Shown: positions 4,705-34,258 of the stretch, piece after piece
Numbering within the stretch: position 1 is the stretch's first letter
Layout of the letters: each line of letters starts with the position of its first letter
Assembly (NCBI RefSeq): GCF_021088345.1
Contig: NZ_CP088156.1
Coordinates: 7,803,001-7,867,000, forward strand
Source of the DNA: Bradyrhizobium ontarionense
GTDB taxonomy: Bacteria; Pseudomonadota; Alphaproteobacteria; Rhizobiales; Xanthobacteraceae
Direction: 5' to 3'
DNA: 64,000 nucleotides
The notes under the pieces: generated by a model
Database searches by the model: none
The model's input: only the letters and a program-made list of their open reading frames with translations
Told to the model about the DNA's origin: nothing
Program-made: the position numbers and the translations under genes

Positions 4705-6378
4705 ATGAGCTCGCTTTCGGCCACGATCCAGAACGTCTTCAACGAGCCGGGTTGCGGCAAGAACGCCAACAAGTCCGAGGCCGAGCGCAAGAAGGGCTGC
4801 ACCAAGCAGCTGCAGCCGGGTGGTGCGGCCGGTGGTTGCGCCTTCGACGGCGCCAAGGTCGCATTGCAGCCGCTGACCGACGTCGCTCACCTGGTTCACG
4901 GCCCGATCGCCTGCGAGGGCAACTCCTGGGACAATCGTGGCGCGGCCTCCTCGGGCGCCTCGATCTGGCGCACCGGGTTCACCACCGACATCAACGAGAC
5001 CGACGTCGTGTTCGGCGGCGAAAAGCGCCTGTACAAGGCGATCAAGGAAATCATCGAGAAATACGATCCGCCGGCGGTCTTCGTCTACCAGACCTGCGTG
5101 CCCGCCATGACCGGCGATGACATCAACGCGGTCTGCAAGGCGGCCTCCGCCAAGTTCGGCAAGCCCTGCATTCCCGTCAATTCGCCCGGCTTCGTCGGAC
5201 CGAAGAACCTCGGCAACAAGCTCGCCGGCGAGGCGCTGCTCGACCATGTCATCGGTACCGTTGAGCCCGAGGTCACCACGCCCTACGACCTCAACATCAT
5301 CGGCGAATACAACCTGTCCGGCGAGCTCTGGCAGGTGAAGCCGCTGTTCGACGAGCTCGGCATCCGCATCTCCGCCTGCATCTCCGGCGACGGCCGCTAC
5401 AAGGACGTAGCGTCGTCGCACCGCGCCCGCGCGGCGATGATGGTGTGCTCCAAGGCGATGATCAACGTCGCCCGCAAGATGGAGGAGCGCTACGGGATTC
5501 CGTTCTTCGAGGGCTCGTTCTACGGCATCCAGGATTCCTCGGATTCGTTGCGCGAGATCGCGCGGCTGCTGGTCGAGCGCGGCGCGCCGGCCGATCTGCT
5601 CGACCGGACCGAGGCTGTGATCGCGCGCGAGGAAGCCAAGGCCTGGGCCGCGATCGAGCCGTTCAAGCAGCGGCTGACGGGCAAGAAGGTGCTGCTGATC
5701 ACCGGCGGCGTGAAGTCGTGGTCGGTGGTGGCGGCGCTGCAGGAGGCCGGCATGGAGCTGGTCGGCACGTCGGTCAAGAAGTCCACCAAGGAGGACAAGG
5801 AGCGCATCAAGGAGCTGATGGGCCAGGACGCCCACATGATCGACGATATGGCGCCGCGCGAAATGTACAAGATGCTCAAGGACGCCAAGGCCGACATCAT
5901 GCTGTCCGGCGGCAAGTCGCAATTCGTGGCGCTGAAGGCGGCGATGCCCTGGCTCGACATCAACCAGGAGCGCGCTCACGCCTTCATGGGCTATATCGGC
6001 ATGGTGAAGCTGGTCGAGGAGATCGACAAGGCGATCTACAACCCGATGTGGGCGCAGCTGCGCAAGCCGGCGCCCTGGGAGAAGGCCGACAGCAACTGGC
6101 AGGCGAGAGCGATCGCGCAGGCCAATGCGGAGGCAGCAGCCCTCGCCGCCGATCCGGTCGCTGCGGAAGCGGCGCGCCGCGCCAAGAAGATCTGCCACTG
6201 CAAGTCGGTCGATCTCGGCACCATCGAGGATGCGATCAAGGCGCACGGCTTAGGTGACGTCACCGGCGTGCGCGAGCACACCAACGCCTCCGGCGGCTGC
6301 GGCGCCTGCGCCGGCCGGGTCGAGGACATCCTGGCCCGCGTGAGCGCGCCGGCCGAGCTGCTGCAGGCGGCGGAATAG
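4705..6378 (+). CDS. nifE: FeMo-cofactor scaffold NifE with C-terminal NifU-type [2Fe-2S] domain
   Basis: This 557-residue protein forms the NifEN scaffold on which the NifB-derived cluster is matured. The NifD-like core fills about residues 1-470. A C-terminal extension carries four cysteines at 497, 499, 532 and 535 (C-x-C-x32-C-x2-C). That is the ligand pattern and spacing of the BFD-type [2Fe-2S] domain found in the middle of full-length NifU. I chose ATG 4705 because AGGAG precedes it, although the frame is open upstream. nifN follows 9 bases on. Confidence 0.95.
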   Translation: MSSLSATIQNVFNEPGCGKNANKSEAERKKGCTKQLQPGGAAGGCAFDGAKVALQPLTDVAHLVHGPIACEGNSWDNRGAASSGASIWRTGFTTDINETDVVFGGEKRLYKAIKEIIEKYDPPAVFVYQTCVPAMTGDDINAVCKAASAKFGKPCIPVNSPGFVGPKNLGNKLAGEALLDHVIGTVEPEVTTPYDLNIIGEYNLSGELWQVKPLFDELGIRISACISGDGRYKDVASSHRARAAMMVCSKAMINVARKMEERYGIPFFEGSFYGIQDSSDSLREIARLLVERGAPADLLDRTEAVIAREEAKAWAAIEPFKQRLTGKKVLLITGGVKSWSVVAALQEAGMELVGTSVKKSTKEDKERIKELMGQDAHMIDDMAPREMYKMLKDAKADIMLSGGKSQFVALKAAMPWLDINQERAHAFMGYIGMVKLVEEIDKAIYNPMWAQLRKPAPWEKADSNWQARAIAQANAEAAALAADPVAAEAARRAKKICHCKSVDLGTIEDAIKAHGLGDVTGVREHTNASGGCGACAGRVEDILARVSAPAELLQAAE

Positions 6379-6387
6379 GCGGCGCGC

Positions 6388-7785
6388 ATGGCCAAGGTCA
6401 CGACCGGAAAGAAAGCCTGCGCGGTCAATCCGCTCAAGATGAGCCAGCCGATCGGCGGCTCGTTCGCCTTCCTCGGCCTGCGCGGAGCGATGCCGCTGCT
6501 GCACGGCTCGCAGGGCTGCACCTCGTTCGGGCTGACGCTGTTCGTGCGCCACTTCAAGGAAGCGGTGCCGATGCAGACCACGGCGATGAGCGAGGTCGCC
6601 ACCGTGCTCGGCGGCTACGAGAACGTCGAGCAGGCGATCCTCAACATCCATAAGAGGCAGAAGCCGGAGATCATCGGCATCTGCTCGACCGGGGTCACCG
6701 AGACCAAGGGCGACGACGTCGACGGCTACATCAGGCTGATCCGCGAGAAGCATCCGGAGCTTGCGACCTATCCGCTGGTCTATGTCTCGACGCCCGACTT
6801 CAAGGATGCGTTCCAGGACGGCTGGGATAAGACCGTCGCCAAGATGGTCGAGGTGCTGGTCGACAAGCCGACCTCGACCCGGCGCGATCCGGCGCGCGTC
6901 AACGTGTTGCCCGGCTGCCACCTGACGCCGGGCGACATCGAGGAGCTGCGCACCATCTTCGAGGATTTCGGCCTGGAGCCGTCGTTCCTGCCCGATATCG
7001 GCGGCTCGCTCGACGGTCACATCCCCGACGAGTTCACGCCGACCACGATCGGCGGCATCGGGCTCGAGGAGATCGCGACCATGGGCAGCGCAGCCTGGAC
7101 GATCGCGATCGGCGCCCAGATGAAGCGCGCGGCGGAGGCGATGCAGGCCAAGACGGGGGTGCCGTACCGGCTGTTCGAGCGCCTCTGCGGGCTATTGCCG
7201 AACGACGAATTCATGACCTTTCTAAGCGAGATCTCGGGACGTCCTGTGCCCGCGAAATATCGCCGCCAGCGCGGTCAGCTCGCGGATGCCATGCTGGATG
7301 CGCATTTCCACATCGGCGGCCGCAAGCTCGCGATCGGCGCCGAGCCGGACCTGCTGTTCGACGTCTCCAGCATGCTGCACGACATGGGCGCTCACGTCGC
7401 CGTGGCCGTGACCACGACGCAGTCGCCGGTGCTCGAACGCATGCGGTGCGAGGAGGTGCTGATCGGCGATCTCGAAGACCTGGAGACCCTCGCGAAGGCG
7501 CGCGGCTGCAACCTCATGATGACGCATTCGCACGGCCGCCAGGCGGCATCGCGCCTGAAGATCCCGTTCTACCGGATCGGCTTTCCGATGTTCGACCGGC
7601 TCGGGGCAGGGCACCTACTGACGGTCGGCTATCGCGGCACCCGCGACCTGATCTTCGCGCTCGCCAATCTCATCATCGCCGATCGCGAGGACAACCATCA
7701 GCCGACCCCTGACACCTGGCTCGAGCCCTGGGCCGAATCCCGTCAGGAGTCGTCGGACTCCGCCGTCGTGGCGCCACTGCATTGA
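6388..7785 (+). CDS. nifN: FeMo-cofactor scaffold NifN
   Basis: This 465-residue beta-type subunit of the NifEN scaffold is related to NifK. The N-terminal segment ACAVNPLKMSQPIGG and the HGSQGCTSFG motif align with the NifK P-cluster region. The length is usual. It starts 9 bases after nifE, so the two are almost certainly co-translated. Confidence 0.96.
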   Translation: MAKVTTGKKACAVNPLKMSQPIGGSFAFLGLRGAMPLLHGSQGCTSFGLTLFVRHFKEAVPMQTTAMSEVATVLGGYENVEQAILNIHKRQKPEIIGICSTGVTETKGDDVDGYIRLIREKHPELATYPLVYVSTPDFKDAFQDGWDKTVAKMVEVLVDKPTSTRRDPARVNVLPGCHLTPGDIEELRTIFEDFGLEPSFLPDIGGSLDGHIPDEFTPTTIGGIGLEEIATMGSAAWTIAIGAQMKRAAEAMQAKTGVPYRLFERLCGLLPNDEFMTFLSEISGRPVPAKYRRQRGQLADAMLDAHFHIGGRKLAIGAEPDLLFDVSSMLHDMGAHVAVAVTTTQSPVLERMRCEEVLIGDLEDLETLAKARGCNLMMTHSHGRQAASRLKIPFYRIGFPMFDRLGAGHLLTVGYRGTRDLIFALANLIIADREDNHQPTPDTWLEPWAESRQESSDSAVVAPLH

Positions 7786-8928: not shown

Positions 8929-9216
8929 ATGTCCAATGCAACCCGTGACGGCCGCGACTGGCGGCCGGATTATCTGGTCGCCATCGATGCCGCCAAGTGC
9001 ATCGGCTGCGGCCGCTGCTACAAGGTCTGTGGCCGCGAGGTCATGACCCTGAAGGGCATCAACGACGAGGGCGAGTTCGTCGAGCTCGACGACGACGAGG
9101 ATGACGAGGTCGAGAAGAAGATCATGGTCATGCACGACACCGGTGCCTGCATCGGCTGCGGTGCCTGCGCCCGCGTCTGCCCGACCAACTGCCAGACCCA
9201 TTCGCCGGCGGCGTGA
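8929..9216 (+). CDS. fdxB: Nif-specific 2[4Fe-4S] ferredoxin III FdxB
   Basis: This 95-residue ferredoxin carries CIGCGRCYKVC near residue 24 and CIGCGACARVC near residue 75. They are separated by an acidic linker (DDDEDDE), the layout of FdxB-type ferredoxin III. It probably donates electrons to a nif maturation step. It is co-directional and tightly spaced with the genes before it. Confidence 0.92.
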   Translation: MSNATRDGRDWRPDYLVAIDAAKCIGCGRCYKVCGREVMTLKGINDEGEFVELDDDEDDEVEKKIMVMHDTGACIGCGACARVCPTNCQTHSPAA

Positions 9217-9649: not shown

Positions 9650-10801
9650 ATGCAAGCTTCGACCCAAGGCACGCTCACCGCCGGAGATACTGGCACGATT
9701 TTCGTTGCAATTGAACTCAGCCAGAAGAGCTGGCTGATCACGTTGCACAGTCCCGATCAGGGACGGATGTCGCGGCACAAGCTCGACGGAGTCGATCAGG
9801 TCGGGTTGCTGGCGTTGATCGCCAAGACGCGGGCCCGGGCGGCGCAGAAGCTCGGATCGGAGCCGCGCGTGGCGAGCTGCTACGAGGCCGGCTATGACGG
9901 CTTCTGGCTGCACCGGTTGCTGGTCGCGAACGGAATCGACAATCTGGTGTTCGATCCGGCAAGCATCGCGGTCGAGCAGCGCGCACGGCGGGCAAAGACG
10001 GATCGGATCGACGGCGAGCTGTTGCTGCGCACGCTGATGGCCTATTTGCGCGGCGAGCCCCGGGTGGTCCGGATCGTCCGGGTGCCGACGGTGGAGCAGG
10101 AGGACGCCCGGCGGGTCAGCCGCGAGCGCGACCGGCTGGTCACGGAGCAGACGGCCCACACCAACCGGATCAAGGCGCTGCTGCGGCTGTCCGGCCTGGA
10201 GGTCGGCGCGCCGCGCCGCCGCAACTGGCTCACCTGGCTGGAGCAGCAACGCGACTGGCAGGGTGAGCCGCTGCCGCCCCACGTTCTGGCCGAGGTCAAG
10301 CGCGAGCACGCGCGTCTGATGCTGGTGCGCGAGCAGCTCGCGGCGCTGGAGCAGAGCCAGGAGGCCGCGCAGGCGGCTGTCGTTCCGGAGGCGATGGCCA
10401 AGCGGCGGGAGCAGCTGCAGCGGCTCAAGGGGCTCGGGCCGGCCTTCGCCACGACATTGGCGGGCGAGCTGTTCTACAAGGACTTCCGCAACCGGCGCGA
10501 GGTCGCCAGCTATTGCGGCCTGACACCGAGCCCATGGAAGAGCGGCGGCATCGATCGTGAGCAGGGCATCAGCAAGGCGGGCAATCCGCACGTCCGCCTG
10601 AAGACGATCGAGCTGGCTTGGCTCTGGGTCCGCCATCAGCCGGACAGCGCGCTCAGCCGCTGGTTCCAGACCCGCACGCTCAACACCGGCAAGCGTGTCA
10701 GGCGCATTGCGATCGTGGCGCTGGCGCGCAAGCTCGTCGTGGCGCTGTGGCGCTATCTCGAGACCGGCCTCGTGCCCGAGGAGGCCCTGATGAAGGCGTA
10801 A
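9650..10801 (+). CDS. IS110-family transposase (DEDD recombinase)
   Basis: This 383-residue transposase has an N-terminal RuvC-like domain with VAIELSQKSW, CYEAGYDGFW and AKTDRIDGELL, the last two matching the E and D..D positions of the DEDD tetrad. The first acidic residue is Glu rather than Asp (IELSQ). A coiled-coil middle part is followed by the C-terminal transposase-20 domain with LKGLGPAFATTLAGE and SYCGLTPSPW. It looks intact. Family members recombine DNA guided by an element-encoded RNA. Confidence 0.92.
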   Translation: MQASTQGTLTAGDTGTIFVAIELSQKSWLITLHSPDQGRMSRHKLDGVDQVGLLALIAKTRARAAQKLGSEPRVASCYEAGYDGFWLHRLLVANGIDNLVFDPASIAVEQRARRAKTDRIDGELLLRTLMAYLRGEPRVVRIVRVPTVEQEDARRVSRERDRLVTEQTAHTNRIKALLRLSGLEVGAPRRRNWLTWLEQQRDWQGEPLPPHVLAEVKREHARLMLVREQLAALEQSQEAAQAAVVPEAMAKRREQLQRLKGLGPAFATTLAGELFYKDFRNRREVASYCGLTPSPWKSGGIDREQGISKAGNPHVRLKTIELAWLWVRHQPDSALSRWFQTRTLNTGKRVRRIAIVALARKLVVALWRYLETGLVPEEALMKA

Positions 10802-11718: not shown

Positions 11719-12570
11719 TCACGCCGCCGCCGCCGTATCGTCGAGCTGGCTCCATTCCGCCCAGGAGCCGTCATAGACGGCGGCATTGGGAACGCCGAGC
11801 CGATACAGCGCCAGTGCCAGCATGCATGAGGTGATGCCCGAGGCGCAGGTGGTGACGATCGGCTTGCTGAGGTCGATGCCTGCCGCCGTGAAGCGTGCGG
11901 CGAGCGCGTCGGGCGCCAGGAGCACGCCGGTGTCGGGATCGACCAGATCGGCCCAGGGCAGGTTGATCGCGCCGGGGATGTGGCCCTGGCGCTTGAAGGT
12001 GAACACGTCTGCCTGCGTGCCGTCGAACTTGCCTGGGCCACGCGCGTCGATCAGCTGGCCGCCACTCTGCAGCAGGCTCTGCACGTCGGCCGAGGTCGCG
12101 ATCAAGCCGGGTGTAAAGCTCGCGGTGAAGCTCGCCGGCGCCGGGCGCACCGGCGTCATCTCGGCCGGGAGCTTCTCCTTGGTCCACTTGCCGAAGCCGC
12201 CATCGAGCAGGGCGACATTGTCATGCCCGAACACGCGGAACGTCCACCACACCCTGCCGGCGGCCGAGCCGCCATAGTGGCGGTCATAGACGATGACGCG
12301 GTCGGAATTGCCGATACCGAGCAGTCCGACCTTGTGGGCAAATTCCTCCGCAGTCGGCAGCATGTGTGGCAGCGGGGTCGATTTGTCGGCGACCTGGTCG
12401 ATGTCGAAATGCACCGAGCCCGGCAGATGCCGGCCGCGATATTGGGTGCGGCCATCGAGGTTGGTGCTCGGATGATGCCAGGTGCAGTCGAGGATCTTGA
12501 TATCAGGATCGGTGAGGTGCTGCGCCAGCCAGTCGGAGCTGACCAGGGCGTCAGAGAAGTCTGTGCTCAT
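11719..12570 (-). CDS. sseA: Thiosulfate/3-mercaptopyruvate sulfurtransferase
   Basis: This 283-residue protein has two rhodanese domains. The N-terminal one (about residues 8-135) is inactive-type, and the C-terminal one (about 160-278) carries the active loop CASGITS with Cys242. The loop resembles the CGSGVT loop of SseA-type mercaptopyruvate sulfurtransferases, with Ala in place of the first Gly. It could supply sulfane sulfur for Fe-S or cofactor building. That link is inferred from the nif context and the shared promoter. Confidence 0.88.
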   Translation of the reverse strand: MSTDFSDALVSSDWLAQHLTDPDIKILDCTWHHPSTNLDGRTQYRGRHLPGSVHFDIDQVADKSTPLPHMLPTAEEFAHKVGLLGIGNSDRVIVYDRHYGGSAAGRVWWTFRVFGHDNVALLDGGFGKWTKEKLPAEMTPVRPAPASFTASFTPGLIATSADVQSLLQSGGQLIDARGPGKFDGTQADVFTFKRQGHIPGAINLPWADLVDPDTGVLLAPDALAARFTAAGIDLSKPIVTTCASGITSCMLALALYRLGVPNAAVYDGSWAEWSQLDDTAAAA

Positions 12571-12636
12571 GCATGCGCTCGCGATTGTTGTGAAGCCAAC
12601 GGGAAGGGCGATCCGATGACTGACGGCTGTCGCCCG

Positions 12637-13095
12637 TCAGAGCGTCTTCGGCATCGGGTAGCCCGGGCGCGGACGGGTGTCGTAATATTCCGGACGCTCC
12701 GGCCAGCCGCCGTCGGGAATGATCTTGAACGTCGCGACGGTCACCGGCGCGCCGGGCGAGCACGACACTTCGGTGAACTTGATCTCGCGTTCGCCCGGGC
12801 CGGCGGAGAAATCGGCGACCGTGGTGCCGTCGGCCTTGCGGGCGCGCGCGAAGCCGGGCGTGCCGACGGTGGCCGCCGGCACGGAGGCTGCAACGAAGTT
12901 CGGCTGCTCCAGGCCATCCGTGGCCGGACCGAAGGCGGGCGAGGCGAAGGTGAAGGTCGCGAGCACGCCGCTGCGGTCGACCGGCTTGTCCGCGGTGGTC
13001 GGGCGCGCCACCGAGTAGACCGTCAGCGTGCCGCCGTCCAAGGCCGCCTTGATGTCGTCGAGCGAGCTTTCGACGAAGTCCAGTGTCACGTTCAT
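12637..13095 (-). CDS. Unknown nif-region protein
   Basis: I do not recognise this 152-residue protein. It begins MNVTLDFVESSLDDIKAAL, is rich in Ala, Pro, Thr and Val, and has one cysteine (EVSCSPGAP) and a Pro-rich tail ending YPMPKTL. No signal peptide is seen. AAGGAGAT precedes the ATG. It is the first gene of the minus-strand operon that continues into the sulfurtransferase, with a sigma-54-like promoter 39 bases upstream. Confidence 0.75.
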   Translation of the reverse strand: MNVTLDFVESSLDDIKAALDGGTLTVYSVARPTTADKPVDRSGVLATFTFASPAFGPATDGLEQPNFVAASVPAATVGTPGFARARKADGTTVADFSAGPGEREIKFTEVSCSPGAPVTVATFKIIPDGGWPERPEYYDTRPRPGYPMPKTL

Positions 13096-13133
13096 GTCGA
13101 TCTCCTTACAAAGGCGCGTTTGCTGGAGAAAAT

Positions 13134-13149
13134 TTCAAGTTCTGTGCCA
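13134..13149 (-). promoter_or_regulatory. sigma-54-like promoter of the sulfurtransferase operon
   Basis: Read on the minus strand the sequence is TGGCACAGAACTTGAA. The -24 half is perfect and the spacing is right, but the -12 dinucleotide is GA instead of GC. No exact TGT-N10-ACA site was found in the 150 bases upstream, so NifA control is plausible but weaker than elsewhere. Confidence 0.5.
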
Positions 13150-13293
13150 GTCTCTCGCAGAAGCGAAGAAAGTTCGCTGGGGCGGCGGAGTTGCGCGAAT
13201 CTTGCAACGTGTCTCCTCAGCGAGCCGACCGTCGCTTTCGATGTGCTGAAAGCGGCAATGTCGGACATGCGCCAGACATCGATGAGGCCCGAC

Positions 13294-13713
13294 ATGACGA
13301 CCGACGTCGCCTACGCCATCTGCAGCTTCAACGACATCCCAAGCCGCCGTGCGATGGGCTTCGAGCTCATGATCGTGGCCGAGGACGGCAGCCACCGTCC
13401 GTGGCCGATCGTCGTCATCCGCTGGGGCAAGCAGGTATTCGGCTATCTGAACATGTGTCCGCACGACAAGGTCAATCTCGACTGGGAGCGCAATCAGTTC
13501 CTGGATGGCAACGGCCTGCGCATCCTCTGCGGCAAGCACGGCTCGCTGTTCGAGATCGGCACCGGGCTGTGCGTCGACGGTCCGTGCAAGGGCGAGAGCC
13601 TGACGCCGGTCGCGCTCACCGTTCTGGACGACGACATTTGCGTGTCCGGGGTGACGCTGGTCGAGGACGAAGAAGATGAGGACGAAACCGGTCTGCAGTG
13701 TGAGGAAGGTTGA
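13294..13713 (+). CDS. Rieske-type [2Fe-2S] protein
   Basis: This 139-residue protein has a Rieske domain with CPHDKVNLDW (C-x-H) and CGKHGSLFEIGTGLC (C-x2-H) as the cluster ligands. It then has a second cysteine pair in the loop (LCVDGPCKGE) and an acidic tail (EDEEDEDE). It resembles small soluble NirD-like or dioxygenase-ferredoxin-type Rieske proteins and may be an electron carrier to nitrogenase maturation. ATG 13294 is preferred because GAGG precedes it; in-frame ATGs also occur at 13258, 13267 and 13282. Confidence 0.85.
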   Translation: MTTDVAYAICSFNDIPSRRAMGFELMIVAEDGSHRPWPIVVIRWGKQVFGYLNMCPHDKVNLDWERNQFLDGNGLRILCGKHGSLFEIGTGLCVDGPCKGESLTPVALTVLDDDICVSGVTLVEDEEDEDETGLQCEEG

Positions 13714-14739: not shown

Positions 14740-15063
14740 ATGATGATCAACCTGACCGACAGCGCAATCAATGCGGTTCGCAACGCGATCACGACCTCCG
14801 ACAAGCCGGTCGATGGCTTGCGGATCATGGTCGAGGCCGGCGGCTGCGCCGGGCTCAAATACAACATGGGTCTCGTCAGCGGCAGCGAGGCGGAGGACAC
14901 CGTGATCGAGCGCGAGGGTGTGCGCGTGCTCGTCGATCACAAGAGTCTCGAATATCTCGAGGGTACGACGATTGATTTCGTCGTCGCGCTGGAGGGCTCC
15001 GGCTTCACCTTCGAGAACCCGAATGCCAAGTCCAGCTGCGGCTGCGGCAAGTCGTTTGCTTGA
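14740..15063 (+). CDS. iscN: Nif-specific A-type Fe-S carrier IscA (IscN)
   Basis: This 107-residue HesB/IscA-family protein has the three conserved cysteines at 36 (GGCAGL) and 100/102 (SSCGCGK). It carries or helps insert Fe-S clusters for nitrogenase proteins. It is the first gene of the sigma-54 operon iscA-nifU-nifS-nifT-SIR2. Tandem ATGs occur at 14740 and 14743. Confidence 0.92.
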   Translation: MMINLTDSAINAVRNAITTSDKPVDGLRIMVEAGGCAGLKYNMGLVSGSEAEDTVIEREGVRVLVDHKSLEYLEGTTIDFVVALEGSGFTFENPNAKSSCGCGKSFA

Positions 15064-15092: not shown

Positions 15093-15383
15093 ATGCTGGT
15101 CGAATCCCAGGGTATCGTCGAAGCGCCGGCCCAGATGAGCGAGCGCGAACGGATCATCCGGGCCGTGATCGAGGAGATCCGTCCGAACCTCAAGCGTGAC
15201 GGCGGCGATTGCGAGCTCGTCGAGATCGACGGCAACAAGGTCATGGTCAAGCTCGCAGGTGCCTGCATCTTCTGCAAGCTTGCCAGCGCGACCTTGGAGG
15301 GCATCCAGGCCCGCATGATCGAGAAGCTCGGCGAGTTCGTTCGCCTCGTTCCGGTGGCCGGCGCACCCAAGGCGCGGCATTAA
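15093..15383 (+). CDS. nifU: Short NifU (Nfu domain only)
   Basis: This 96-residue protein is equivalent only to the C-terminal Nfu domain of classical NifU, with the cluster-binding pair C58-x2-C61 (GACIFCKLASATLEG). The IscU-like N-terminal scaffold and the central [2Fe-2S] domain are absent. A domain matching the central part is fused to NifE. It sits between iscA and nifS. An internal ATG (residue 15) is an alternative start. Confidence 0.9.
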   Translation: MLVESQGIVEAPAQMSERERIIRAVIEEIRPNLKRDGGDCELVEIDGNKVMVKLAGACIFCKLASATLEGIQARMIEKLGEFVRLVPVAGAPKARH

Positions 15384-15392
15384 GGAGCGGTC

Positions 15393-16604
15393 TTGCGTCC
15401 GGTCTATCTCGACAACAACGCGACGACCCGTGCGGATCCCGCAGTCGTCGCGGCAATGTTGCCGTTCTTCTCGGACCAGTTCGGCAATGCCTCGTCCTCG
15501 CATGCCTTCGGCAGCGAGGTGGCCGGTGCCGTGAGGCAGGCGCGCAGGAGCCTGCAGGCTCTGTTGGGCGCCGTCTTCGATCATGAGATCGTCTTCACCT
15601 CCGGTGGGACGGAATCCGACAACAGCGCGATCCTGTCGGCGCTGGAGACGCAGGACGCACGCGACGAGATCGTCACGACGGCGGTGGAGCATCCCGCGAT
15701 CCTGTCGCTGGTCGAATATCTCAGCGATAAGCGCGGCATCAAGGTGCATCTGATCGGCGTCGATGCGGCCGGTTGCCTCGATCTCGACGCCTACATGCGT
15801 GCGCTCGGGCCGCGCACCGCGATCGCCTCGGTGATGTGGGCCAACAACGAGACCGGCACGCTGTTTCCGATTCCGGAGCTGGCGAAGCTCGCGCATGACG
15901 CCGGTGCGCTATTCCATACCGATGCCGTGCAGGCCGTCGGCAAGATCGCGATCAATCTGAAATCCGCCGATGTCGACATGCTGTCGCTGTCGGGTCACAA
16001 GCTGCATGGCCCCAAGGGCGTCGGTGCGCTGTACCTCAAGAAGGGCACGCCGTTCGCGCCGCTGGTGCGCGGTGGCCCGCAGGAGCGCCGCCGCCGCGGC
16101 GGCACCGAGAACGTTCCCGCCATCATCGGACTCGGCAAGGCGGCCGAGCTCGCTGGACAATACCTCGGCGACGAGCAGGGCCGGGTGCGCGCGCTGCGCG
16201 ACCGGCTGGAGCAGGGCATCATCGAGGGCGTCGGCCATTGCGCCGTGCTGGGCGATATCGAGCACCGGCTGCCCAACACGTTGAACATCGCCTTCCAGCA
16301 TCTCGAAGGCGAGCCGATCGTGATGCGCCTGAACCAGGCCGGCATCGCCGCCTCGCTCGGCTCAGCCTGCGCGTCCGGCTCGATGGAGCCGTCGCACGTG
16401 CTGCGGGCGATGAACGTGCCGCCGGATCTGTTGCGCGGCGCCGTCCGCTTCTCGCTGTCGCGCGACTCCACGGAGGACGACATCATGCGCGTGCTCCAAG
16501 TGCTGCCCGACATCGTCGCCAGGCTGCGCGAGACGTCGCCGGCGTGGCTGCAGCATCATCCCTCGCAATCGGCGGACCCCATTCGATCCACGGAGCTTAC
16601 GTAA
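15393..16604 (+). CDS. nifS: Cysteine desulfurase NifS
   Basis: This 403-residue PLP enzyme releases sulfur from cysteine for Fe-S cluster building. The PLP lysine is in SLSGHKLHGPKG and the catalytic cysteine in GSACASGSMEPSHVL. The start is TTG at 15393 with AAGGAG correctly spaced before it. The N-terminus reads MRPVYLDNNATT as in the family. It overlaps nifT at TAATG. Confidence 0.96.
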   Translation: MRPVYLDNNATTRADPAVVAAMLPFFSDQFGNASSSHAFGSEVAGAVRQARRSLQALLGAVFDHEIVFTSGGTESDNSAILSALETQDARDEIVTTAVEHPAILSLVEYLSDKRGIKVHLIGVDAAGCLDLDAYMRALGPRTAIASVMWANNETGTLFPIPELAKLAHDAGALFHTDAVQAVGKIAINLKSADVDMLSLSGHKLHGPKGVGALYLKKGTPFAPLVRGGPQERRRRGGTENVPAIIGLGKAAELAGQYLGDEQGRVRALRDRLEQGIIEGVGHCAVLGDIEHRLPNTLNIAFQHLEGEPIVMRLNQAGIAASLGSACASGSMEPSHVLRAMNVPPDLLRGAVRFSLSRDSTEDDIMRVLQVLPDIVARLRETSPAWLQHHPSQSADPIRSTELT

Positions 16605-16825
16605 TGAAAGTCATGATCCGCCGCTCGCCGGAAACCGGCCTCTCTATCTATGTCCCGAAGAAGGACCTGGAGGAGCCGATCGTCGAGACCGAGCACGAGA
16701 CGCTATGGGGCGGCTGGATCCGCATCGCCAACGGCTGGGTGCTCGAGCTGCCGCAGATGGCGGCCGACACGCGGCTGCCGATCACGATCAATGCGCGCAA
16801 GCGCGGTGGAGAAGGGGACGAGTAA
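16604..16825 (+). CDS. nifT: NifT/FixU protein
   Basis: This 73-residue member of the NifT/FixU family opens MKVMIRRSPETGLSIYVPKK and has WGGWIRIANGWVLELP. The function is not established; it is usually linked to nitrogenase maturation and is often dispensable. It overlaps nifS by one base at the start and the SIR2 gene by one base at the end, so the genes are translationally coupled. Confidence 0.93.
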   Translation: MKVMIRRSPETGLSIYVPKKDLEEPIVETEHETLWGGWIRIANGWVLELPQMAADTRLPITINARKRGGEGDE

Positions 16826-17691
16826 TGAATGCGCCGCTTCCGCACATCGATATCATCAGGCAGGCCGACGCCGAGGCGCTGCTCAAGGATGTCGTCGCCA
16901 GGCTCGGGGCCGGCACGGTGATCCCCTATCTCGGACCGGCGGTCTCGGAGCAGTCCGGCGCCGCAGTGCCGATGAACCCCGAGGCGCTGGCTGCCTTCTT
17001 CGGCACAAAGGTGGCACTCCCCCGCCGCGCCAAGGGCAACGCTTGGGCTGCGGCCCAGCACATCGAAAGCACGCGTCACCGCTCGACGGTGACGGCGCTG
17101 ATGGCGGAGGCGTTCGCAGCACCCGTCGCGCCGACGCCGCTGCAGCAGCACCTCGCGTCGCTGCCGCTGCCGATGATCGTCGACAGCTGGTATGACGGCG
17201 CGATGCGGACGGCGCTGGCCGGGCGCAGCGACTGGGGCGAGGTGCAGGGCATCACCCGCGCCGGCATTGGCGAGGACCGCTGGTATCGCTTCTACGACGC
17301 TGGCGGCGCCGAGGCCAATCGCGAAACGGCGGGCGGCTGGGCGACGCTGCTCTACAAGCCCCACGGCGGCACTACGCCGGCCAAGAACTTCCTGATCACC
17401 GACGCCGACTATGTCGAAGTCCTGACCGACATCGACATCCAGACGCCGATTCCCGACACCGTGAAGGATCGCCGCACCGACCGCAGCTTCCTGTTCATCG
17501 GCTGCCGCTTCAACGACCAGCTGCTGCGCACCTATGGCCGCCAGGTCATCAAGCGCTCGGGTACGGAGCATTATGTGCTGGTCGAGCCGGACTCGCTGTC
17601 GAAGAACGAGCTCAAGTTCTTCATCGCCGAGCGGCTGACGCCGATCGCGATTCCGCTGCCGCGGGCGACCGAGATCATCATCGCCGGCTGA
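16825..17691 (+). CDS. SIR2-like domain protein in the nif operon
   Basis: This 288-residue protein has a SIR2_2-type Rossmann fold. The opening motif GTVIPYLGPAVSEQSG corresponds to the glycine-rich NAD-binding start. The late motif SFLFIGCRFNDQLLRTYG matches the FIG-x3-ND region. No extra domain is visible. Such domains occur in NAD-consuming defence proteins. Here it is coupled by TAATG overlap to nifT and shares the NifA promoter, so a nitrogen-fixation role (NAD or redox sensing) is inferred. Confidence 0.82.
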   Translation: MNAPLPHIDIIRQADAEALLKDVVARLGAGTVIPYLGPAVSEQSGAAVPMNPEALAAFFGTKVALPRRAKGNAWAAAQHIESTRHRSTVTALMAEAFAAPVAPTPLQQHLASLPLPMIVDSWYDGAMRTALAGRSDWGEVQGITRAGIGEDRWYRFYDAGGAEANRETAGGWATLLYKPHGGTTPAKNFLITDADYVEVLTDIDIQTPIPDTVKDRRTDRSFLFIGCRFNDQLLRTYGRQVIKRSGTEHYVLVEPDSLSKNELKFFIAERLTPIAIPLPRATEIIIAG

Positions 17692-33037: not shown

Positions 33038-34258
33038 ATGCCTGACGTCCCCGGACAGCGTGGGCCGCACACCGCCCAGGATGCCGGCTCTGCCGCGAGC
33101 CCAACATTTGGGAGCCCGATGCCCCGGGTGATCCTGAACGACACCACGTTGCGCGACGGTGAGCAGGCACCGGGCGTGGCCTTCGCTCTCGGAGAGAAGC
33201 TTGCGATTGCACGCGCATTGGCACGCGCCGGCGTTCCGGAGATCGAGGCGGGGACGCCGGCGATGGGCGCCGACGAGATCGCCGCGATCCGGGCGATCGT
33301 CGAAGCCGGTCTGCCGGCGACCATCATCGGCTGGTGCCGGATGCGCGAGGCGGACGTCGACGCGGCAATCGCGGCCGGCGTGTCGATGGTGAATGTGTCC
33401 ATTCCGACATCCGATATCCAGATCGCGGCCAAGCTCGGCGGCGGCCGGAGCGCCGCCCTGGATCTGCTCAAGCGCGTGGTCGGCTATGCCAGGGAGCGCG
33501 GGCTGGCGGTTGCCGTCGGCGGCGAGGATTCCTCCCGCGCGGATGTCGGATTCCTCGCCGAGGTGATCGCGACGGCGAAGTCGCTCGGCGCGCGCCGCTT
33601 CCGTGTGGCGGATACGTTGAGCGTGCTCGATCCCGACGCCACCTCGGCGCTGGTCGGGGCCTTGCGGGCGACGACGGACCTCGAGATCGAGTTTCACGGC
33701 CATGATGATCTCGGGCTCGCCACGGCCAACACGCTCGCCGCGATCAAGGCCGGCGCGACCCACGCGTCGGTCACCGTCATCGGCCTCGGCGAGCGCGCCG
33801 GCAACGCGCCGCTCGAGGAGGTCGCGGTCGCCTTGCGGCAGCTCTATCGGCGCGACACGGGCATTCTGCTCGCCGAGCTGGACCATGTCGCGAATGTCGT
33901 TGCCGCTGCAGCCGTGCGCGCTATCCCGCTCAACAAGGCGATCGTCGGGGAGCACGTGTTCACGCATGAATCGGGCATTCATGTCGACGGATTGCTGAAG
34001 GATCAGCGGACCTATCAGGCGCTCGATCCTGTGCTGTTCGGGCGCTCCAACCGGATCGTGATCGGCAAGCACTCTGGCCTCTCCGCGATCACCTCGCTGC
34101 TATCCGATCTGCGCCTGCCTGTGAGTGCCGACCAGGCGCAGCGGATTCTCGCCCGCGTGCGCAAGCATGCGGTTGCCCACAAGGGGCCCGTGCCGAAAGA
34201 GGCGGTCGCCGCCATCTGGCGCGAGGTCTGTGATCACCCGCTAGCGAGCTTTGCCTGA
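33038..34258 (+). CDS. nifV: Homocitrate synthase NifV
   Basis: This protein makes homocitrate, the organic ligand of FeMo-cofactor, from acetyl-CoA and 2-oxoglutarate. The family start [17 protein letters not shown], the metal-binding [15 protein letters not shown] and the C-terminal [17 protein letters not shown] are all visible. ATG 33038 (406 residues, GGAG before it) gives a Pro/Ala-rich 27-residue extension. ATG 33119 (379 residues, GGGAG before it) gives the usual length and may be the true start. Its presence supports fixation outside the host plant. Confidence 0.95.

Follow-up and report, generated by a model that had tools for sequence, protein, structure and literature searches.

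The nif region of Bradyrhizobium ontarionense

The window analysed here, a stretch of 64,000 nucleotides of the Bradyrhizobium ontarionense genome, contains a nif region in which nifE (4705..6378, + strand; 557 amino acids, ATG at 4705) encodes a NifE core with a C-terminal BFD domain, and in which nifN, encoding the partner of NifE, lies directly downstream (6388..7785, +; Pfam Oxidored_nitro, 1.6e-124; named from family and position). Also on the + strand are genes for a 4Fe-4S ferredoxin that is FdxB-like by position (8929..9216; Pfam Fer4 families), an IscA/HesB-type protein beside nifU (14740..15063; Pfam Fe-S_biosyn, 5e-25; labelled from the Pfam family), NifU itself (15093..15383), a cysteine desulfurase termed nifS-like from its position and family (15393..16604; Pfam Aminotran_5, 3.9e-85) and the homocitrate synthase NifV (33128..34216, contig positions 7836128-7837216; TIGR02660, 502.9 bits, cut-off 462.9). 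The annotation of Bradyrhizobium sp. BWA-3-5 gives an equal gene order for nifN and nifS and has fdxB at the position of the ferredoxin. An IS110-type transposase gene (9650-10801) and an open reading frame of 577 codons with a C-terminal Rieske domain (11980-13713) lie between the nifENX part and nifUS. A gene for a SIR2-like domain protein (16705-17691; Pfam SIR2_2, 6.6e-20) is found within the nif region, and BWA-3-5 likewise has a SIR2 family gene between nifT and nifB.

NifE carries a C-terminal BFD domain

The NifE protein, which is 97% identical to that of B. oligotrophicum S58, belongs to the nifE family (TIGR01283, 654.8 bits, cut-off 505.1), with a Pfam Oxidored_nitro match spanning residues 45-444. 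An Ala-rich linker of about residues 456-492 (6070..6180, +) separates this region from a second Pfam domain at residues 496-545 (6190..6339, +), where Fer2_BFD (PF04324) matches at 54.7 bits (E 1.3e-14, gathering cut-off 26), far above chance. The original prediction, which expected a BFD match in this place, had described Cys497, Cys499, Cys532 and Cys535 as a C-x-C-x32-C-x2-C motif with the ligand spacing of the [2Fe-2S] cluster in the middle of full-length NifU; this spacing is seen in the translation of the open reading frame (codons 6193-6309), and the four cysteines follow the ligand pattern of Fer2_BFD (C-x-C...C-x2-C). A tail motif of the form C-x-C-x(28-40)-C-x2-C is present in 108 of 121 NifE proteins, that is, in the set of B. 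ontarionense NifE and the best 120 relatives listed. Among 36 solved sequences matching NifE, none matches past residue 479, leaving the BFD domain uncovered, while a profile of the domain finds bacterioferritin-associated ferredoxins as the closest solved sequences (best 4e6k, E 1.1e-6). The canonical tail gave an AlphaFold model of only moderate confidence (pLDDT 79), for which Foldseek places Pseudomonas Bfd at the top of its matches (probability 1.00, TM 0.78 on the target, with a weak E of 0.17). From its family and its ligands, the domain is predicted to hold one [2Fe-2S] cluster.

The same prediction held that nifU was reduced to its Nfu end and that no IscU-like scaffold accompanied it. 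The product of nifU indeed has 96 amino acids and matches Nfu alone (Pfam NifU (Nfu), 72.6 bits, residues 22-84), covering only positions 219-290 of the NifU_proper profile. A full-length NifU elsewhere, which would make the shortening irrelevant, was not found: in the whole genome nothing scores above the NifU_proper (TIGR02000) cut-off of 273.3 bits, the best in that search being the Nfu domain at 75.5 bits. The nif NifU protein by itself scores 78.2 bits with this profile, and the genome encodes a second Nfu protein. The absence of an IscU-like scaffold holds for the window but not for the genome, in which a single NifU_N match occurs in a separate 157-residue protein; its SufU score lies below the cut-off of that model, and the adjoining gene is presumably folE. 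BFD domains occur in six places in the genome in all.

The NifE domain is related to the central domain of NifU

Profile comparison alone cannot name the parent family of the NifE domain, because the NCBIfam models for NirB and NifU_proper score the NifE stretch almost equally (35.0 and 34.1 bits, respectively). A tree of 70 BFD domains, built on 61 columns and with only five NirB-like and two Bfd sequences for contrast, joins 43 NifE and 20 NifU units with a support of 98/99; the NifE domains group with the NifU units and are not placed nested inside them. A spacing of 32 residues between the ligand pairs is found in 20/20 NifU units and in 35 of 37 first NifE units, and one of 31 residues in all five NirB-like domains, a label that refers to frame length and NCBIfam resemblance and not to annotation. 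Moreover, a NifU profile beats a NirB-like profile in 33 of the 43 NifE BFD units, with the reverse in 10. Tree and spacing do not favour an origin from NirB, though these 10 units prefer the NirB-like profile. The claimed likeness to the NifU central domain is borne out by both the x32 spacing and the joint tree group, and the NifE domain is likely derived from a NifU domain. We grade this origin as likely and no higher because the 61-column tree does not place the NifE units inside NifU.

NifE-BFD proteins are patchily distributed, with no coupling to a short NifU in the genome counts

A BFD domain on NifE was described by Sant'Anna et al. in 2011 (BMC Genomics 12:409, PMC3169532) for Azospirillum amazonense, Bradyrhizobium, Xanthobacter and Azorhizobium, together with an A. 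amazonense NifU that lacks the BFD and N-terminal domains, so that the combination of NifE-BFD with a short NifU is in substance already known since that year. In the accessible part of its text, the paper offers no mechanism for NifE-BFD.

In a survey of 80 named loci, three of which (L366, L367 and L389) yielded no readable tail, we found NifE-BFD in Nitrospirillum, Bradyrhizobium, Methylocystis, Azorhizobium, Xanthobacter, Roseibium and Rhodoblastus. It is also present in metagenome-assembled genomes (MAGs) labelled Acidocella, Novosphingobium, Beijerinckiaceae and others, and in the gammaproteobacterial methanotrophs Methylotetracoccus, Methylolobus, Methyloglobulus and Methylococcaceae. 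Two BFD units in tandem occur in all four named Xanthobacter loci (L331, L341, L344, L380) and in a Beijerinckiaceae MAG (L392), and another Xanthobacter NifE (P0067) has a single unit. Such tandem units would be more in keeping with a redox tether than with a structural element.

Of 397 genomes of the order that we searched, 70 bear NifE, and in 13 of these NifE carries a BFD domain (11 canonical, two with the C-C site described below), one NifE cut by a contig end (G296) being entered as lacking it. Full-length NifU with its own BFD domain is encoded in four of the 13 NifE-BFD genomes (G238, G074, G191 and G284) versus 21 of the 57 genomes without NifE-BFD (Fisher p=0.76; counts uncorrected for kinship), and 36 of the 70 genomes have neither NifE-BFD nor full-length NifU. 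In these counts the gain of NifE-BFD and the shortening of NifU are not tied together, and we reject a strict trade-off between NifU and NifE on the same numbers. At three Niveispirillum loci, NifE is 90% identical to Nitrospirillum NifE, yet lacks the domain, and within the flanks examined the nif region has only an Nfu match for NifU. In one other family, five genomes (G028, G107, G138, G166 and G189) likewise combine an Nfu-only NifU with a NifE that lacks BFD. Domain-free NifE proteins that are 75-79% identical to that of B. ontarionense are found in G245, G212 and G888; the G212 protein (L024, 75-77% identical) has a low-complexity Pro/Ser-rich tail in place of the domain. In a sample of 385 genomes of the class, NifE was found in 13 at a limit of E 1e-120, with BFD in two of them, both Bradyrhizobium (G000 and G035), one tail being unread; among the 11 genomes from outside the order, none of the 10 readable frames has the motif. 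Three rows of this sample were left out (L311, frameshift before the tail; L303, anchor missed; L312, second copy of G689).

The original prediction had interpreted the architecture as a redistribution of NifU modules. In such a scenario, the central domain would have moved to NifE and continued there what it did in NifU, namely redox support of [Fe-S] assembly or transfer, and NifU would have been left with Nfu alone. The kinship of the NifE and NifU domains in the tree agrees with such a transfer, and full-length NifU is missing from nine of the 13 NifE-BFD genomes of the order and scores above its cut-off in none of 80 Bradyrhizobium genomes. However, four of the 13 genomes have both, a proportion not shown to be lower than that among genomes without NifE-BFD, and Niveispirillum and the five genomes of the other family have an Nfu-only NifU without NifE-BFD; we consider this explanation improbable. 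The observation behind the original prediction is confirmed, for an architecture known since 2011, and its interpretation is supported in part: the kinship with the NifU central domain and the Nfu-only NifU stood, but the redistribution as a trade found no support.

Altered ligand sites in Bradyrhizobium

To follow the domain within the genus, we surveyed 265 Bradyrhizobium genomes, 166 of which have NifE, and read 132 copies from 130 of them. The 36 unread genomes, unread partly for want of listed coordinates, include weaker-scoring rows, so that ligand-less forms may be undercounted; second copies of G402, G443 and G480 were left out, and L012 in the same reading belongs to another genus. 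Thirty-four copies are canonical, 87 have the form C-x-C-x32-C-C, and the remaining 11 are without the ligand set. What the C-C copies lack is precisely the codon pair that separates Cys532 from Cys535 (second ligand pair, 6298..6309, +). The first ligand pair, Cys497-x-Cys499 (6193..6201, +), is Cys in 35/35 canonical rows and in 87/87 C-C copies, and all four cysteines are retained in every C-C copy, which partly follows from the definition of the class; among the 132 copies, none with a single lost cysteine was seen outside the 11 ligand-less ones. Neighbouring positions differ as well: residue 529 is Ser in 35/35 canonical rows and replaced in 87/87 C-C copies, and Arg occupies position 537 in 74 of the 87 C-C copies but never in the 35 canonical rows. 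C-C sites are found in rows L013, L015 and most of L167-L255, all relatives within Bradyrhizobium.

Estimates of dN/dS (Nei-Gojobori, with 40 sampled C-C rows, two ligand-less groups of seven and four rows, and high dS) gave 0.19 [0.12-0.32] for the canonical and 0.18 [0.12-0.29] for the C-C BFD domain, and 0.67 [0.41-0.99] and 0.84 [0.37-1.95] for the two ligand-less groups. The linker gave 0.20 in canonical and 0.51 [0.34-0.77] in C-C copies. To judge from these values, the C-C domain looks kept and altered under purifying selection and the ligand-less domain looks decayed. The AlphaFold model of a C-C tail has a pLDDT of 68, with Pseudomonas Bfd again the top Foldseek match at a weak E of 0.79; this poorer model is as compatible with damage to the fold as with an altered site.

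Named strains with the C-C form include B. jicamae, B. retamae, B. valentinum, B. yuanmingense, B. barranii, B. ivorense and B. cajani, and those with ligand-less copies (rows L256-L266) include B. canariense, B. arachidis, B. iriomotense and B. manausense; another strain named B. iriomotense (L330) is canonical. A plasmid of B. guangxiense (L393) has a remnant NifE tail without the ligand set. In two strains, a canonical nifE copy coexists with one of the C-C form (G464, L152/L235; G489, L165/L243).

Altered NifE forms and nodulation genes

NodA, NifV and NifU were searched for in 80 of the 166 genomes, comprising 34 canonical, 11 ligand-less and 35 C-C genomes, the last hand-picked over the score range from 85 in which only a C-C copy was read. 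A strong NodA match, defined by our threshold of >280 bits (the Pfam cut-off is 22 bits), was obtained in 35/35 C-C, 11/11 ligand-less and 8/34 canonical genomes, that is, in 46/46 altered versus 8/34 canonical genomes (p=2e-14). If every score that reaches 22 bits, or differs from it by at most 0.4 bits, is counted, a NodA match is present in 19 of the 34 canonical genomes; 11 of these score only 22-31 bits and were not counted, such matches being taken for other acyltransferases. Of the eight canonical genomes with strong NodA, G464 and G489 also carry a C-C copy and G443 has an unread second NifE, and G501, G427 and G500 are nodA-positive genomes that keep canonical ligands. Nif-type Nfu (at least 60 bits) is present in 33/34 canonical, 19/35 C-C and 10/11 ligand-less genomes, with a stop inside the match in four of the 19 and one of the 10, and NifV scores above its cut-off in 34/34, 27/35 and 8/11, respectively.

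A NifE tree of 127 rows (identical cores dropped), built with a quick method that leaves 54 of 124 inner branches open, requires only five changes of state and yields only two independent pairs on starred branches, a number with which a sign test is impossible. The C-C rows form one weakly supported group, with 84 rows and three canonical rows among them. The canonical C-x2-C NifE of G427 (L210) is nested among C-C copies with a support of 100 (SH-aLRT); it may represent regain, recombination or parallel deletions. The associations of NodA, Nfu and NifV with the type of NifE are lineage-level patterns with few independent changes. We reject the claim that nodulation drives the erosion of the BFD domain, given the five state changes, the dependence of NodA on the threshold and the three nodA-positive canonical genomes. 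Nor do we claim that the C-C form is useless outside nodules. Taken irrespective of NifE type, strain SUTN9-2 reduces acetylene in the free-living state, though markedly less than DOA9 (PMC6934396).

A possible role in electron supply to the cofactor scaffold

A BFD domain carries a single electron on its [2Fe-2S] cluster. NifEN serves as the scaffold for maturation of the FeMo-co precursor, a process that NifH assists. Our leading reading, to which we give about an even chance, is that the BFD domain of NifE acts as a tethered electron-transfer module on this scaffold. A reductase or ferredoxin would reduce its [2Fe-2S] cluster, which in turn would pass electrons to clusters bound on NifEN during FeMo-co maturation. 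The domain would be auxiliary, neither essential nor a substitute for NifU, since NifE proteins of close kin lack it and it is eroded in 11 Bradyrhizobium copies. In many nodulating bradyrhizobia it would have been kept under selection with C-C in place of C-x2-C, probably with an effect on cluster potential or cluster binding, and in other nodulating lineages it would have decayed. By analogy with the proposal for FhuF, a C-C pair might remain able to bind a cluster. More tentatively, the selected variant of the nodulators may bind a [2Fe-2S] (or other) cluster on C-x-C and a vicinal C-C, as a BFD counterpart of FhuF, and tune the electron supply of the FeMo-co scaffold in nodules, the other nodulating lineages having dropped the ligands altogether. 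The open-licence literature yielded no measured cluster, potential, electron donor or phenotype for any NifE-BFD and no explanation of why some NifE proteins carry a redox centre of their own; as the search spanned such papers only, the C-C variant may well be in print elsewhere, and we make no claim of its novelty.

Alternatively, the domain might be a redox, iron or oxygen sensor or docking domain, with the state of its cluster controlling the binding of partners to NifEN and not electron flow. The closest solved relatives include Bfd in complex with bacterioferritin (4e6k), and the altered form in nodulators could follow the oxygen or redox setting of the nodule; no partner is known, however, and we regard this role as unlikely. 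Somewhat less likely still is that C-C copies carry nothing more than a dead domain that is being lost. Its poorer model, the decay of the ligand-less lineages and the absence of nif-type Nfu and nifV from some altered genomes would agree with this, but the C-C domain retains its four cysteines throughout and has a dN/dS at the canonical level next to a linker at 0.51, and the consistent changes at residues 529 and 537 also argue against decay. That the domain is an ordinary passenger with no selected role in NifE agrees with its patchy occurrence in the order and class samples, but is very improbable given the purifying selection on it and the conservation of its ligands across alpha- and gammaproteobacteria.

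Because one genus contains canonical, selected C-C and decayed versions of the domain, along with two-copy strains, its function can be tested directly; we regard the altered ligand site of the nodulating relatives as most worth following. For nitrogenase in plants, where a source of NifEN and an electron supply must be chosen, the domain may be relevant to both choices.

Comparison with known systems

The systems described in PMC3169532 share two facts with B. ontarionense, a BFD domain on NifE and a NifU lacking the BFD and N-terminal domains, the latter described for A. amazonense; the part of that text available to us is silent on the C-C variant, tandem BFD units, genomes with both domains and loss in nodulators. 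With the central domain of NifU (TIGR02000), NifE-BFD has in common the C-x-C-x32-C-x2-C spacing and a joint tree group, but, unlike that domain, it has no adjoining NifU_N or Nfu. It belongs to the same Pfam family as NirB-like proteins and Bfd (4e6k, 6e6s) and, as far as its moderate model and weak structural matches suggest, may share their fold, whereas the five NirB-like domains sampled differ in their x31 spacing and fall into a separate tree group. For the C-C variant, the model is Escherichia coli FhuF, whose vicinal cysteines, in a C-C-x10-C-x2-C motif, have been proposed as ligands of a [2Fe-2S] cluster with unusual spectroscopic properties (PMC8068687, as far as its accessible text goes); spacing and order of the pairs differ between the two proteins, and the cluster of C-C NifE is putative.
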